A stretch of DNA of 64,000 nt from Kordiimonadales bacterium IMCC3096. GTDB taxonomy: Bacteria; Pseudomonadota; Alphaproteobacteria; Minwuiales; Minwuiaceae. The translations under genes were made by a program, and so were the position numbers. This document shows, one piece after another, positions 11,898-17,759 of this stretch (position 1 is its first letter; each line of letters opens with the position of its first letter). The DNA lies in the NCBI GenBank assembly GCA_016865035.1, contig CP018227.1:1024001-1088000 (forward strand), read 5' to 3'. The notes under the pieces are model-generated. The model was given only the letters and a program-made list of their open reading frames with translations. It did no database searches and was not told the DNA's origin.

Positions 11898-14800
11898 TCA
11901 GATCTCCGCCACATCGATGACGCCGCCAATCGACTTCAGCGATTGCCGCACCGAACGGTCGATGCGGAACGCGGCCGGCAGTTCCATCGCCACCTCGCTC
12001 ATCGCCCCGGTGTCACGCAGGGTAAGCTGGACAAGACCACGTCCACCCTCGGCGCGCTGCAGGATGGATCGGATGGTGGGCAGGGCATCCGGCCGCGCCA
12101 GCGTGATCCGCGCACCCGCCGCGGCGTCGGCGACGAAGGCATCGATGTCCTCCGCGCCAAGCAGGGTCAGGGTCGGTTCCTCCCGGTCGCGCCTGATCTC
12201 GACCCGGAAGACACCGTTCCAGCCGACCTGCAGCTTCTCGCGATATTCGTTCAGCACATCGCCGAAGCACAGGATCTCACATTCCCCGGACGGGTCGGAC
12301 AGGCCGATGAAGGCGAATGCCCGGCCCTTTGCGGAGCGCCGGACCTGCAGCGCGGAGATGCTGCCCGCCAGCATCAGTGAGGTCATGCCCTCGGCAAAGG
12401 CATCCGGCAGACGATCCAGCGCCCGGACCCCCTTCTGCCGCAAGCGCTGCTGATAGTCGTCGAGGGGGTGACCGGACAGGTAGAAGCCAATGGCCCCCCG
12501 CTCCTCGGCCAGGCGTTCCAGGTCATCGAACTGCGGGGAGTCAGGCAGGGGCGGACGGTCGCCCGCGGAACCGGCATCGGGACCGCCGCCGAACAGTCCC
12601 ATCTGGCCGCTGGCCCTGTCCGCCGCCTGCCGCGACGCATAGCCCAGCAGCACGTCCAGTGACTTGATCACCTGGCGGCGGTTGGCGTTCAGACTGTCGA
12701 AGGCACCGGCACGGGCCAGGTTCTCCAGCTGGCGCTTGTTCAGGGCGGAGGTCTCGACGCGGGTGATGAAATCGAACAGGTCCCTGAACGGCCCGCCCTC
12801 GTCCCTCGCGTGAACAATCGCAGCCATGGCGTCGCGGCCGACGTTCTTGATTGCGGCCAGGGCATAGCGGATACCCTGTTCCTGCCCGTCGGCGTCGCGC
12901 TCCACCCCGAAGACGACGCCGGAGGCATTCACGTCCGGCGCCAGCATGGGAATCTTCAGCCGCTTCAGTTCCTGGCGGAAGACATCCAGCTTGTCCGTAT
13001 TGCCCATGTCGAGGGTCATCGACGCAGCCATGAAGGCCGCCGGATGGTTGGCCTTCAGCCAGGCGGTCTGCCAGGCCACCAGCGCATAGGCCGCCGCGTG
13101 GGACTTGTTGAAGCCGTAGCCCGCGAACTTCTCGATCAGTTCGAAGACATAATTGGCGATGCGGTCGGTGACGTTGTTGCGCTGCGCGCCCTCGATGAAA
13201 CGGGCCCGCTGCTGGTCCATTTCCGCCTTGATCTTCTTGCCCATGGCCCGTCGCAGCAGATCAGCCTCGCCCAGGCTGTAGCCCGACATGACCTGGGCGA
13301 TCTGCATGACCTGTTCCTGGTAGACGGGAATGCCATAGGTCTCGGCCAGGATGGCCTCCAGCATCGGATGCGGGTAGTCCGGTTCCTCCCGCCCGTGCTT
13401 GGTGGCGATGTACTTCGGGATATTGTCCATCGGGCCGGGACGGTAGAGGGCAACGATGGCGATGATGTCCTCGAACTTGTCAGGCTTCATCTGGCGCAGC
13501 ACGTCGCGCATGCCAGAACTTTCCAACTGGAACACGCCCACCGTCTCGCCCCGCCCCAGCATGGCGAAGGTGGCCTCGTCACCCTCCGGTATGTCTGCGA
13601 CAGTCATGTCCAGCCCGCCATCGCGGACATGACCGATGGCGCGGTCCAGCACGGTCAGCGTCTTCAGGCCCAGGAAGTCGAACTTCACCAGCCCCGCCGA
13701 TTCCACATACTTCATGGAGAACTGGGTGACCGGCATGTCGGACTTCGGATCGCGGTAGAGCGGCACCAGCTCGTCCAGCCGCCGGTCGCCGATCACCACA
13801 CCCGCCGCATGGGTGGAGGCATGGCGATAGAGGCCCTCGAGCTGCAGGGCCTGATCGATCAGATGACGGACGGCGTCATCGTCCCTGTACTCGGCCTTCA
13901 GCGCCGGTTCCTGCTCCAGTGCCTCCTTCAGGGTGACCGGATTGGCCGGATTGTTCGGCACCATCTTGGAAATCCGGTCCACCTGGCCATAGGGCATCTG
14001 CAGCACCCGCCCGACATCGCGCAGCACCGCACGGGCCTGCAGCTTTCCGAAGGTGATGATCTGCGCCACCTGGTCATGGCCATACTTGTCCTGCACGTAG
14101 CGGATGACCGCGTCCCGCCGGTCCTGGCAGAAGTCGATGTCGAAGTCGGGCATGGACACGCGTTCGGGGTTCAGGAACCGCTCGAACAGCAGCCCGTAGC
14201 GCAGGGGATCGAGGTCGGTAATGGTCAGGACATAGGCCACCAGCGACCCGGCACCGGAACCGCGCCCCGGCCCCACCGGAATGCCCTGGCCCTTGGTCCA
14301 CTGGATGAAGTCGGCGACGATCAGGAAGTAGCCGGGGAAATCCATGTCGATGATGATGCCGAGTTCCAGGTCCAGCCGTTCCCGGTAGACCTTCTCCTCG
14401 ACCACGATCCCCTTCTCCGCCATGGCGGCGAGGCGCGCATCCAGTCCCGCATAGGCCATGGCACGCAGTTCATCCGCCTCGCTGCGCCCCTCCGTCGTGG
14501 GGAAACGGGGCAGGATCGGGTCGCGCCGGGGGGCCATGAAACCGCAACGGCGGGCGATCACCAGCGTGTTGCTGATCGCCTCCGGCACATCGGCGAACAG
14601 CGCCTTCATCTCGTCGGCACTCTTGAACCGATGCTCCGGCGTCAGGCGGCGGCGTTCCGTCTGGCTGACATAGGCGCCCTCCGCCACACAGATCAGGGCG
14701 TCATGGGCGTCATACATGCCCCGTTCGAGGAAGAAGCAGTCGTTGGTCGCGACCAGCGGCACATCCTCCGCCATCGCCATGTCGATCATCACCTGCTCGA

Positions 14801-15365
14801 CCTGATCCTCCGCCGCCAGGCCATGACGCTGCAGCTCGACATAGGCGCGGCCCGGAAACAGTCCGGCGATCTGCCGCAGCCAGGTCCGCGCCGCTGCCTC
14901 CTCCCCGTCCGCCAGCAAGCGCCCCAGCGGTCCCGAGGCGCCGCCGGTCAGCAGGATCAGCCCGTCGGTCAGCTCCGCGAACTTCCCCTCCGCCAGATGG
15001 GTGTCGAAACCGGGATCGGTATCGAGGAAGGCGGAGGAAACCAGCTTCATGAGGTTGCCGTAGCCGGTCGCGTCCTGCACCAGCAGGACGACGGAACCCA
15101 GGTGCGGGCGCGGCAGGGCGGAACCCTGTCGCTGCTCCATGCCGAAGGCGACGGCAAGCTGGCAGCCGATGATCGGCTGCACCCCCGCCTCCGCCAGTGC
15201 GGGACCGTATTCCATGGCACCGAAGAGATTGTTGGTGTCCGTCACCGCGACAGCGGGCATGCCGAACTTCGCGGCCTTCACCGCCAGATCCTTTGACCGG
15301 ATCGCCCCCTCGGACAGGGAGTAGGCACTGTGCAGCCTCAGATGTACGAAATCGGCATGACCCAT
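11898..15365 (-). CDS. dnaE: DNA polymerase III alpha subunit
   Basis: DnaE is the replicative polymerase. The ATG at 15365 (preceded by GGGGAC) gives 1155 aa starting MGHADFVHLRLHSAYSLSEG, the canonical N-terminus of the PHP domain. The frame extends further upstream without family similarity. Later come the polymerase palm motifs PGRGSGAGSLVAYVLTI and the catalytic PDFDIDFCQDRR (about residues 365-415), the fingers/beta-binding region with helix-hairpin-helix motifs (about 790-860), and an OB-fold domain (about 950-1050). The C-terminus is complete. It is monocistronic here; the next gene on the strand, rpsB, lies 223 bases on with its own promoter. Confidence 0.97.
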   Translation of the reverse strand: MGHADFVHLRLHSAYSLSEGAIRSKDLAVKAAKFGMPAVAVTDTNNLFGAMEYGPALAEAGVQPIIGCQLAVAFGMEQRQGSALPRPHLGSVVLLVQDATGYGNLMKLVSSAFLDTDPGFDTHLAEGKFAELTDGLILLTGGASGPLGRLLADGEEAAARTWLRQIAGLFPGRAYVELQRHGLAAEDQVEQVMIDMAMAEDVPLVATNDCFFLERGMYDAHDALICVAEGAYVSQTERRRLTPEHRFKSADEMKALFADVPEAISNTLVIARRCGFMAPRRDPILPRFPTTEGRSEADELRAMAYAGLDARLAAMAEKGIVVEEKVYRERLDLELGIIIDMDFPGYFLIVADFIQWTKGQGIPVGPGRGSGAGSLVAYVLTITDLDPLRYGLLFERFLNPERVSMPDFDIDFCQDRRDAVIRYVQDKYGHDQVAQIITFGKLQARAVLRDVGRVLQMPYGQVDRISKMVPNNPANPVTLKEALEQEPALKAEYRDDDAVRHLIDQALQLEGLYRHASTHAAGVVIGDRRLDELVPLYRDPKSDMPVTQFSMKYVESAGLVKFDFLGLKTLTVLDRAIGHVRDGGLDMTVADIPEGDEATFAMLGRGETVGVFQLESSGMRDVLRQMKPDKFEDIIAIVALYRPGPMDNIPKYIATKHGREEPDYPHPMLEAILAETYGIPVYQEQVMQIAQVMSGYSLGEADLLRRAMGKKIKAEMDQQRARFIEGAQRNNVTDRIANYVFELIEKFAGYGFNKSHAAAYALVAWQTAWLKANHPAAFMAASMTLDMGNTDKLDVFRQELKRLKIPMLAPDVNASGVVFGVERDADGQEQGIRYALAAIKNVGRDAMAAIVHARDEGGPFRDLFDFITRVETSALNKRQLENLARAGAFDSLNANRRQVIKSLDVLLGYASRQAADRASGQMGLFGGGPDAGSAGDRPPLPDSPQFDDLERLAEERGAIGFYLSGHPLDDYQQRLRQKGVRALDRLPDAFAEGMTSLMLAGSISALQVRRSAKGRAFAFIGLSDPSGECEILCFGDVLNEYREKLQVGWNGVFRVEIRRDREEPTLTLLGAEDIDAFVADAAAGARITLARPDALPTIRSILQRAEGGRGLVQLTLRDTGAMSEVAMELPAAFRIDRSVRQSLKSIGGVIDVAEI

Positions 15366-15508
15366 GGTCCGGTCCCCAGCGACAAGTCGCGGGACCGGCC
15401 GGACACCGGAATCGGTGCCCGGAGCGAATCCCGCATCAGGGACCAATCATCGTTGCTTGATGCCCCACTGTCGCGGTTCACCCGCCGGGGAGGCCGAATT
15501 TCCTGTGG

Positions 15509-15539
15509 AAAAAACTGTTGACGGATTGACCGGCCGTCA
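15509..15539 (-). terminator. rho-independent terminator of the 34-aa peptide gene
   Basis: On the minus strand the arms TGACGG and CCGTCA enclose a 9-base loop and are followed by ACAG and six T residues. The first arm begins inside the stop codon of the small peptide gene, so the transcript would end right behind it and before dnaE. Confidence 0.6.
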
Positions 15540-15641
15540 GCCGCCGACGACCGTGCTGATGATCTCCCCCCAGGCCGCGAAAGCACCCCAGAGACCCACA
15601 AGCGTTGCCAGTCCAAACGCGTCCTTGACCCAATCCATCAT
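15537..15641 (-). CDS. 34-aa single-helix membrane peptide, probably SOS-regulated
   Basis: An unrecognised short gene encodes 34 residues, beginning Met-Met-Asp-Trp-Val-Lys-Asp and ending Val-Val-Gly-Gly. Residues about 8-29 are a continuous hydrophobic stretch rich in Gly, Ala, Leu and Trp with one Glu (residue 25), long enough to span a membrane. Evidence that it is a gene: AGGAGGTG immediately precedes the two Met codons (the GTG abuts the first ATG, so the second, at 15638, has the better spacing). A terminator begins at its stop, and a promoter with a LexA-type box lies about 30 bases upstream. Small SOS-induced membrane peptides are known (Caulobacter SidA, a division inhibitor; E. coli TisB). 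Similarity to them is in size, topology and control only, and the function is inference. Confidence 0.72.
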   Translation of the reverse strand: MMDWVKDAFGLATLVGLWGAFAAWGEIISTVVGG

Positions 15642-15663
15642 CACCTCCTGCATCTCGTTGCCG

Positions 15664-15698
15664 GAGGTGATGTTCCATCAATGTTCTCTTTGAGTCAA
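15664..15698 (-). promoter_or_regulatory. LexA-type box within the promoter of the 34-aa peptide gene
   Basis: The plus strand at 15672-15686 reads GTTC-CATCAAT-GTTC, an exact GTTC-N7-GTTC direct repeat, the operator known for LexA in alphaproteobacteria. On the minus strand a TTGACT (-35, 15696-15691) is followed after 17 bases by GAACAT (-10, 15673-15668). The box therefore covers most of the spacer and the first -10 bases. That placement is typical of a LexA-repressed promoter. The -10 match is weak (three of six). Confidence 0.65.
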
Positions 15699-15702
15699 CA
15701 TG

Positions 15703-15725
15703 TGTTCTCAAACAAAATGAGAACA
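15703..15725. promoter_or_regulatory. perfect inverted repeat upstream of the SOS-type promoter
   Basis: TGTTCTCA and TGAGAACA form a perfect 8+8 inverted repeat with a 7-base spacer, just upstream of the -35 box of the peptide promoter. The arms contain GTTC/GAAC half-sites in inverted orientation. It could be a second operator or a site for another dimeric regulator. Confidence 0.45.
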
Positions 15726-15740
15726 TGTGGATTGTGTGGC

Positions 15741-15820
15741 CTGTTCCGTCCCTCTCCCCCTCCCGGCCACCCATTCAGGATGATCCCGTGGGTGGCCGGA
15801 GAGGGAGAGGGATGGAACAG
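15741..15820. repeat. REP-like dispersed palindrome, copy 1
   Basis: An 80-bp element of two arms of about 31 bases (CTGTTCC...GGCCACCC and its near-perfect complement) around the loop ATTCAGGATGATCCCGT. It stands 12 bases after the lolD stop, separating lolD from the peptide promoter. A second copy with a different outer stem but the same inner arms and loop is at 46727-46809. Arms are C/T-rich on one side and G/A-rich on the other; the element may stabilise or end the lolD transcript. Confidence 0.75.
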
Positions 15821-15832
15821 ACAGCCGATGGA

Positions 15833-16519
15833 CTACAGCGCCGCCTCCGTGATCCGTCCCTCCGCCAGGGTCACGGCCCGGTCCATGCTGGCCGCGAGAG
15901 CCAGATTGTGGGTCGCCAGCAGCACGCCGATGCGCGACTCCCGGGCGATCTCGATCAGATGCGCGAACACCCGGTCCGCCGTTTTCGGGTCCAGGTTGCC
16001 GGTGGGCTCGTCCGCCAGCAGCACGCGGGGCAGGTTGGCCACGGCGCGGGCGATGGCAACGCGCTGCTGCTCGCCGCCCGAGAGCCGTGCCGGACGATGG
16101 CTGGCGCGCTCCGCAATGCCCAGCGTCTCCAGCAGTTCCGCCGCGCGCTGGCGCGCCACCGGCTTCGACTTTCCGGCAATCATCTGTGCCAGCATGATGT
16201 TCTCCACCGCCGAGAATTCCGGCAGCAGGTGGTGATACTGGTAGACGAAGCCGAGTGAGCTGCGCCGGGTCACGGTCCGCTCCGCCTCCGACATGCGGGC
16301 GCTGCTCTGACCGGCGATCAGCACGTCGCCCTGATCGGGACGCTCCAGCAGTCCGGCGATCTGCAGCAGGGTCGACTTGCCCGCACCCGAAGGGCCGACC
16401 AGCGCCACGATCTCACCGGGCCGCACATCCAGCGAGGCCCCGTCGAGCACGCGCAGTTCGCGTTCCCCCTGACGGAAGGTACGCCCGACGCCATCCAGCC
16501 TGAGCGCGATCTCACTCAT
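15833..16519 (-). CDS. lolD: lipoprotein-releasing ABC transporter ATP-binding protein LolD
   Basis: LolD energises release of outer-membrane lipoproteins from the inner membrane to LolA. The 228-aa ATPase has Walker [10 protein letters not shown] (residues 42-50), the signature [14 protein letters not shown], and Walker [12 protein letters not shown]. The LolD-type position of these motifs and its overlap with the lolC/E-type permease (8 bases) support the assignment over other MacB-like ATPases. The stop is followed by the REP-like palindrome. Confidence 0.94.
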
Positions 16520-17759
16520 AGCGCAGCGCCTCTACCGGATCGAGGCGGGCCGCCCGCCAGGCCGGATAGATGGTGGCGACGAAGGACAGGCCGAGTGCCA
16601 TCAGCAGCACGCCGACCACCTCTCCCGTCTCCATCCGCGCCGGGATCTGCGACAGCCAGCGGATCTCCGGCGACCAGAGCACGGTGCCGGTCAGGCTTTC
16701 CAGGAACACCCGTATGGCGTCGATGTTGAGGCAGAAGACCACGCCCAGCGCGAAACCGGCCAGCGTGCCGACGACCCCGATGCTGGCCCCGGCGATCAGG
16801 AACACGCGCATCACCGACCCCCGCGCCGCGCCCATGGTGCGCAGGATTGCGATGTCACGCCCCTTGTCCTTCACCAGCATGATCATGCTGGAGATGATGT
16901 TGAAGGCGGCCACCAGGATGATCAGGGTCAGGATCAGGAACATCACGTTCCGCTCCACCTGCAGGGCGGCAACGAAGGACGCGTTGGCCCGCTGCCAGTC
17001 CACCACGCGGATTCCCTGGCCCGCGAACATGCCGTAGATGTCCCCGGCCCGCGCCGCCGCGTCATCGGCGCTGTCCAGCACCACCTCGATGCCCGTCACG
17101 CCATCGCCGGTGCGGAAATAGCGCTGCGCCTGCGGCAGGCCCATGAAGATGTAGCTGGAGTCATATTCGTACATGCCGACTTCGAACAGCGCGACGACCT
17201 GGTAGGTGGCGAGGCGCGGCACGAACCCCATCACCGTCGTCGTGCCCTTGGGCGAGATCAGAGTGACCTTGTCGCCGACACTCAGGCCGAAGCGCTCCGC
17301 CATCCGGGTACCGATCATGATGGTCGCCGGTTCGGCCAGCGCAGCGGCGGACCCGGCGCGCAGGTTGGTGGAGAGCGCCTTGTGCACCTCCAGATCCGCG
17401 ACCGACAGTCCCCGCACCAGCGCGCCCCGCGCCTCGTTCCGGGCGGTGATCATGACCTGCCCCTCGACATAGGGCGCGGCCTGGACCACGCCCGGCAGTT
17501 CACCGATGCGGGCCGACATCACCTCGAAGTCCGTGATCGGCTCCTCGTAGGTCAGGACCGAGATATGGCCGTTCAGCCCCAGGATGCGGTCCACCAGTTC
17601 GGTGCGGAAACCGTTCATCACCGCCATGACGATGATCAGGGTCGCCACACCGAGCGCGATGCCCACCAGCGAGAACCAGGCAATGACGGAGATGAACCCC
17701 TCCGCCCGTCGCGCCCGCAGATACCGTACGGCGATCATCCATTCGAAGGCGTTGAACAT
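16512..17759 (-). CDS. lolC: lipoprotein-releasing ABC transporter permease (LolC/LolE type)
   Basis: This is the membrane subunit of the Lol exporter. The 415-aa protein has the N-terminal [24 protein letters not shown]-type entry helix (about residues 20-50) and a large periplasmic MacB-like domain (about 50-265). Three C-terminal FtsX-fold helices follow, ending with the conserved [17 protein letters not shown] tail. Only one such gene is next to lolD, as in alphaproteobacteria where one protein replaces the LolC-LolE pair, so the symbol is approximate. It lies 51 bases after proS. Confidence 0.92.

Follow-up and report, generated by a model that had tools for sequence, protein, structure and literature searches.

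The window, a 64,000-nucleotide stretch of the source genome (G000; 4.29 Mb, single contig), carries a small open reading frame (ORF) on its minus strand, where the gene order is lolC/E permease, lolD-like ATPase, small ORF and dnaE. The dnaE start at 15365 lies 171 nt past the stop codon of the ORF, bearing out the position just upstream of dnaE given in the initial annotation. The ORF thus shares with SidA, the division inhibitor of Caulobacter, the trait of being the gene directly upstream of dnaE. The features of the locus are as follows.

11898 to 15365, minus strand: dnaE, DNA polymerase III alpha subunit (start by homology)
15537 to 15638, minus strand: ORF of 33 codons plus stop, SidA-like peptide (from sequence; kept in 9/9 genomes of the order)
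15639 to 15672, minus strand: predicted mRNA hairpin over the ribosome-binding site and first ATG (−22 kcal/mol, z −4.65)
15644 to 15649, minus strand: ribosome-binding site AGGAGG (from sequence; 5′ of two adjacent ATGs)
15672 to 15686, minus strand: LexA-type box GAACATTGATGGAAC (GTTC-N7-GTTC on the plus strand; exact in 8/9 relatives)
15693 to 15698, minus strand: −35-like TTGACT (from sequence; TTGAC 8–12 nt before the box in 23/30 dnaE-linked loci)
15703 to 15725, minus strand: TGTTCTCATTTTGTTTGAGAACA, inverted repeat 5′ of the −35 (GTTCTCATTTTGT...GAAC retained in 5/7 genus members, L001–L005)
15833 to 16519, minus strand: lolD-like ABC ATPase (best NCBIfam LolD at 247.5 bits, under the cut-off of 307.75; Pfam ABC_tran)
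16512 to 17759, minus strand: lolC/E permease (TIGR02212 at 459.4 bits, over the cut-off)

Between lolD and the peptide promoter lies a long near-perfect palindrome (15739–15822, −69 kcal/mol), which looks like a REP-type intergenic repeat. The genome has a second copy on the 5′ side of uvrA, which abuts the exact LexA-like box found there. An Rfam scan of 15300–15900 returned 19 matches, all below curated thresholds, and the sub-threshold microRNA matches are explained by this palindrome.

As initially annotated, a ribosome-binding site (AGGAGG, 15649–15644) precedes two adjacent Met codons. The peptide has 33 residues instead of the 34 first assigned to it, because relative L005 reads ATA at the first ATG and keeps the second, which is therefore the start. 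The hydrophobic segment noted at the outset is real but modest, with a Kyte–Doolittle hydropathy of 1.56 over 17 residues, near the usual threshold. AlphaFold2, run with nine sequences, predicted a single helix spanning residues 2–32 (mean pLDDT 87.8), and the peptide would thereby resemble SidA in being short with one membrane-spanning helix.

Conservation of the frame in relatives had been named as a check on the gene, and it came out in its favour. A peptide match was present in all nine genomes searched from the order at E ≤ 10, seven of them in the genus, and the six genus relatives were 97, 97, 85, 84, 43 and 43% identical to the window peptide. The two matches from other genera were weak by sequence alone (E 0.04 and 0.7) and were secured by a well-placed exact box together with a good family-profile score; genome G001 scored E 1.1e-14 against the family profile, its own sequence being inside that profile. 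Synonymous and nonsynonymous changes numbered 10 and 1 for L004/L005, 7 and 1 for L001/L002, 5 and 0 for L002/L003, and 4 and 0 for L006/L007, and dN/dS was 0.02–0.12 in the six pairs, out of 11 compared, for which it was computable and non-zero. As the changes in relatives are mostly silent, we rejected a chance reading frame.

The exact GTTC-N7-GTTC box proposed for this promoter is indeed there, as GAACATTGATGGAAC at 15672–15686, and fits the Caulobacter LexA box as given in passages of PMC12700426 and PMC9578287; the latter also describes an E. coli LexA box that differs from GTTC-N7-GTTC. Upstream of the ORF, GAAC-N7-GAAC is exact in eight of the nine genomes of the order and has one mismatch in the ninth (L006). 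Such a LexA box at the promoter is another SidA trait that the candidate box reproduces. The pattern occurs exactly twice in the 64-kb window against 1.25 expected, and 143 times in the whole genome, where the reversed pattern occurs 28 times. These counts would fit a box that is there by chance, beside an ORF encoding a small membrane protein outside LexA control, and with two matches in the window where 1.25 are expected we rejected the box by itself as good evidence. It carries weight only by comparison, as it is exact in 8/9 genomes and as, in the 190 dnaE-upstream regions surveyed below, no other spacing compares with N7.

Elsewhere in the source genome, an exact box precedes lexA. The recA gene (L310) has no exact box and carries two GAAC-N7-GTAC sites upstream, each with one mismatch, which counts against a SidA-like reading; from these sites, the host LexA may tolerate a degenerate half-site. 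Exact boxes also overlap the 5′ ends of two genes, L295 (radical SAM, PA0069 family) and L308 (a 267-codon ORF), both of them further candidates for the LexA regulon. An identification of the L308 ORF as ImuA was dropped and left out of the count, as it matched no NCBIfam family and gave a Pfam match below threshold only. Among the box matches listed for this genome, GTTCTGGACTGGTTC recurs at many places, which suggests a coding sequence present in several copies, or a mobile element, with no connection to LexA.

The box was said to lie between a −35 and a −10 element. The −35 part of that description holds (TTGACT at 15698–15693), but the −10 is unsupported: a sigma-70 promoter scan returned no promoters, which counts against a LexA-repressed SidA-like gene and makes a weak or non-canonical −10 the likely case. 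The GTTCTCATTTTGT...GAAC inverted repeat 5′ of the −35 may be a second regulator site or a LexA half-site pair. A predicted leader hairpin covers the ribosome-binding site, with AUCACCUCC paired with GGAGGUGAU, and none of 200 shuffles folded as well. The hairpin is retained in L002 (z −2.4) and L003 (z −3.2), L006 has a related hairpin (z −3.0), the L007 fold is weak (z −1.0), and none is predicted in L004 (z −1.2) or L005 (z −0.2); the leader DNA alignment was ungapped and was left out of the pair counts. Translation may be limited by the predicted hairpin, but in some Minwuia lineages only.

At the 3′ end, the terminator that had been placed at the stop codon was not recovered: the scan found no terminators and the 3′ fold was no better than shuffles (z −0.47), so a downstream terminator was rejected. 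With no terminator found in between, read-through into dnaE is possible. This, and the fixed place of the gene beside dnaE in many genomes, would suit an SOS-controlled peptide that acts on its neighbours, for example a translated leader tuning dnaE or lolD expression. The amino-acid sequence is conserved and hydrophobic, and the Caulobacter product acts in trans on division according to passages of PMC4211646, both of which argue against such a role; we regard it as improbable.

Beyond the order, a nine-sequence profile searched against 385 genomes of the class matched 100 genomes at E ≤ 1, mostly in pieces of longer frames. Of seven weak outsiders examined, one, L014 (genome G026), had an exact box 45 nt upstream; its ORF lies 3′ of a lolD-like end on a contig that ends before dnaE. 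Because of this setting after a lolD-like end, we searched the place upstream of dnaE. dnaE was located by its N-terminus in 365 of the 385 genomes, and 190 regions of ~1 kb upstream of it were collected (30 listed loci, 80 picked across families and 80 lower-scoring), a hand-picked sample favouring larger genomes and varied families in which three stretches are shorter than 500 nt. Exact GAAC-N7-GAAC was found within 560 nt upstream of dnaE in 29 of the 190, whereas each remaining spacing between 2 and 15 was found in 0–5. For GTTC-N7-GTTC, on the opposite strand, the count was 14/190 (N8 12, N11 7, others 0–4); as there is some enrichment at dnaE in this orientation too, the motif count is in part background and not orientation-specific. 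The unrelated control word CAAG gave 0–4. TTATCCACA upstream of dnaE was no signal, with 13/187 on the sense strand against 12 antisense.

The box was then combined with the gene behind it. A box, a ribosome-binding site and a hydrophobic ORF of 24–45 aa occurred together in 26/190 regions at N7, and the same combination at the nine other spacings between 3 and 12 gave 0 for seven of them and 1 for the remaining two (N9, N11). Only spacing 7 accompanies such ORFs at dnaE, and the place of the box is retained in relatives, which argues against a chance box; we give that explanation hardly any credence. Looser grounds added four loci: G003 (one mismatch), G071 (lower hydropathy), and G017 and G150 (a 47-residue form), for a total of 30 candidates in the 190 genomes under 15 family labels. 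A profile including most of these candidates matched 30/30 on the sense strand, while the antisense strand had no match at E < 1; this result is partly circular. TTGAC starts 8–12 nt 5′ of the box in 23 of the 30, and TTGACA is also visible in L046, outside the 23. A lolD-like C-terminus was recognised by motif in 20/30 candidates (one, L158, looks spurious) against 87/160 non-candidates, so the lolD–dnaE neighbourhood is a common one within which the peptide sits. The gene was absent upstream of dnaE in 160 of the 190 surveyed genomes, and most genomes whose DnaE is closest are among these 160, which counts against a SidA-like reading.

The SOS-induced SidA of Caulobacter is found at the same place. 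In passages of PMC4211646, SidA is a 29-residue inner-membrane protein and FtsW inhibitor that blocks division, interacting with FtsW and, in two-hybrid tests, with FtsN, and the alleles ftsW(A246T) and ftsW(F145L) relieve its effect; its locus tag is CCNA_02004 (in a passage of PMC10769358). The family f64 was examined for its counterpart. A PopZ query of Caulobacter crescentus, identical to PDB chain 6xry_A over 133 residues, matched genome G483 (f64) at 95%; most other genomes under the same genus label matched at 76–89% and three at 54–62%, from which we infer that this genus label is Caulobacter. An earlier assignment of f121 as Caulobacteraceae was rejected, as f121 is a family of four genomes. 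In the f64 comparison, 98 of 149 genomes gave a match at E ≤ 0.1, and 28 of the best 30 loci had an exact box within 120 nt. Among 20 f64 loci, 19 had an ORF behind a box of at most one mismatch, and dnaE was recognised 110–161 nt after the ORF start in 15/20 of these Caulobacteraceae loci, all 15 among the box-bearing 19. The f64 peptides upstream of dnaE have ~28–31 residues. Five of them, four from the Caulobacter label, matched NF033228 (“cell division inhibitor SidA”) at 50.8–72.7 bits against a cut-off of 35, and a sixth (G071) stayed below it at 20.5 bits. Because NF033228 is matched over its cut-off, the peptide that Caulobacter encodes upstream of dnaE is SidA. A placement of sidA next to dnaE from the numbers of their locus tags (dnaE CC1926, sidA CCNA_02004) was dropped, NF033228 having settled it.

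The sequence link between the window peptide and SidA is indirect. The window peptide matched no NCBIfam family and its genome gave no NF033228 match, which counts against SidA identity; across the class, NF033228 passed its cut-off in 1/385 genomes, an f64 member. One member of the family alignment, distinct from the window peptide, matched NF041729 weakly (PA1414 family, E 0.027). Direct comparison of the Minwuia and Caulobacteraceae profiles was also weak: it gave 17.5%, and 5 and 2 of 200 column shuffles scored as well. Through intermediates the connection was strong: the Minwuia profile matched them at 95.8% and they matched Caulobacteraceae at 96%, and for both steps none of 200 column shuffles did as well in either of two shuffle modes. 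The intermediates had been selected by box, place, length and hydropathy and not by sequence, so the [KR][DE] pattern common to the peptides was not built in, unlike length and hydropathy. A profile built without Minwuia found the window peptide at E = 0.0043, the best non-candidate standing at 4.6. When families were held out in turn, at least one held-out peptide was recovered at E < 1 in 14/15 families, f116 being the exception, and at E < 0.05 in 9/15, with several single members missed and the best non-candidate frame at E 0.19 to 7.4. The remark that the peptide resembles none known thus stands for direct searches but fails once intermediates are used. We regard the peptide as SidA-like, a counterpart of SidA by position, and do not assign it to NF033228, as it fails that model, the direct match is weak and the link runs through intermediates.

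SidA and TisB had both been offered as analogues of a small SOS-induced membrane protein. TisB of E. coli is a membrane-active toxin. TisB and DinQ, also from E. coli, are small single-helix SOS peptides, as the window peptide would be, and a LexA-controlled membrane-active peptide of their type, which lowers membrane potential and slows metabolism without binding the divisome, would fit its size, single helix and LexA-type control equally well. The predicted hairpin over the ribosome-binding site also recalls the restricted translation of dinQ reported in PMC3567139, where DinQ is likewise a membrane-active toxin. Place and profile link are shared with SidA, whereas no sequence or locus link was found with TisB or DinQ, and we judge this type unlikely. 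The evidence points to SidA. Both SidA (NF033228) and the window peptide are short single-helix peptides encoded directly upstream of dnaE, behind one or more GAAC-N7-GAAC boxes 30–60 nt upstream and with [KR][DE] before the hydrophobic stretch; the window peptide differs in length (33 against 29 residues), in not matching NF033228 and in its weak direct profile match. Two further likenesses are by description. DidA of Caulobacter, in passages of PMC4211646, is a small membrane division inhibitor of the same divisome subcomplex as SidA, but is SOS-independent and induced by DriD instead of LexA. YneA of Bacillus and SosA of Staphylococcus are SOS-induced membrane division inhibitors (PMC13396833 and PMC6851548), yet are Gram-positive proteins with a different SOS box (in a passage of PMC9578287).

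The initial proposal of an SOS small membrane protein is thus supported in its SidA form by the conserved frame and promoter box, the box at lexA and the place shared with SidA. We conclude that the gene quite probably is repressed by LexA and encodes an inner-membrane peptide of 33 residues, which corresponds in position, and distantly in sequence, to the division inhibitor SidA of Caulobacter. As it occupies the same lolD–dnaE place as Caulobacter SidA, the peptide most likely represents a distant form of SidA and stops division during DNA repair. The mode of action outlined here is the SidA scheme, transferred by analogy onto DNA and protein features. In undamaged cells, LexA would bind the GAAC-N7-GAAC box overlapping the promoter and keep the gene silent. 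Upon DNA damage, RecA would trigger LexA self-cleavage and the peptide would be made, presumably entering the inner membrane as one helix. There it would keep the septal synthesis complex (FtsW/FtsI/FtsN) inactive, with FtsW and FtsN as its putative targets, so that division waits for repair.

Among open-licence papers, searched by titles and abstract starts, no SidA-like genes beside dnaE outside Caulobacter were found, nor any match to a Caulobacter peptide fragment; as open-licence papers were the literature covered, a claim that the wider family is unreported would be weak. NF033228 passes in 1/385 sampled genomes, but judging by box, place and profile there may be relatives in 15 families, and fast-diverging genes of ~30 codons are easily missed. 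Together, these data suggest a dnaE-linked family wider than the curated SidA model recognises. More tentatively, and with doubts outweighing our confidence, this LexA-controlled family might be ancestral to much of Alphaproteobacteria, so that FtsW/FtsN septal arrest by a ~30-residue peptide would be an ancient SOS checkpoint and no Caulobacter peculiarity, with the Minwuia hairpin as a second, translational lock. If the SidA-like assignment is true, it would provide a testable SOS division-arrest candidate for many alphaproteobacteria, and a set of naturally diverged sequences that could help to infer which residues contact FtsW.
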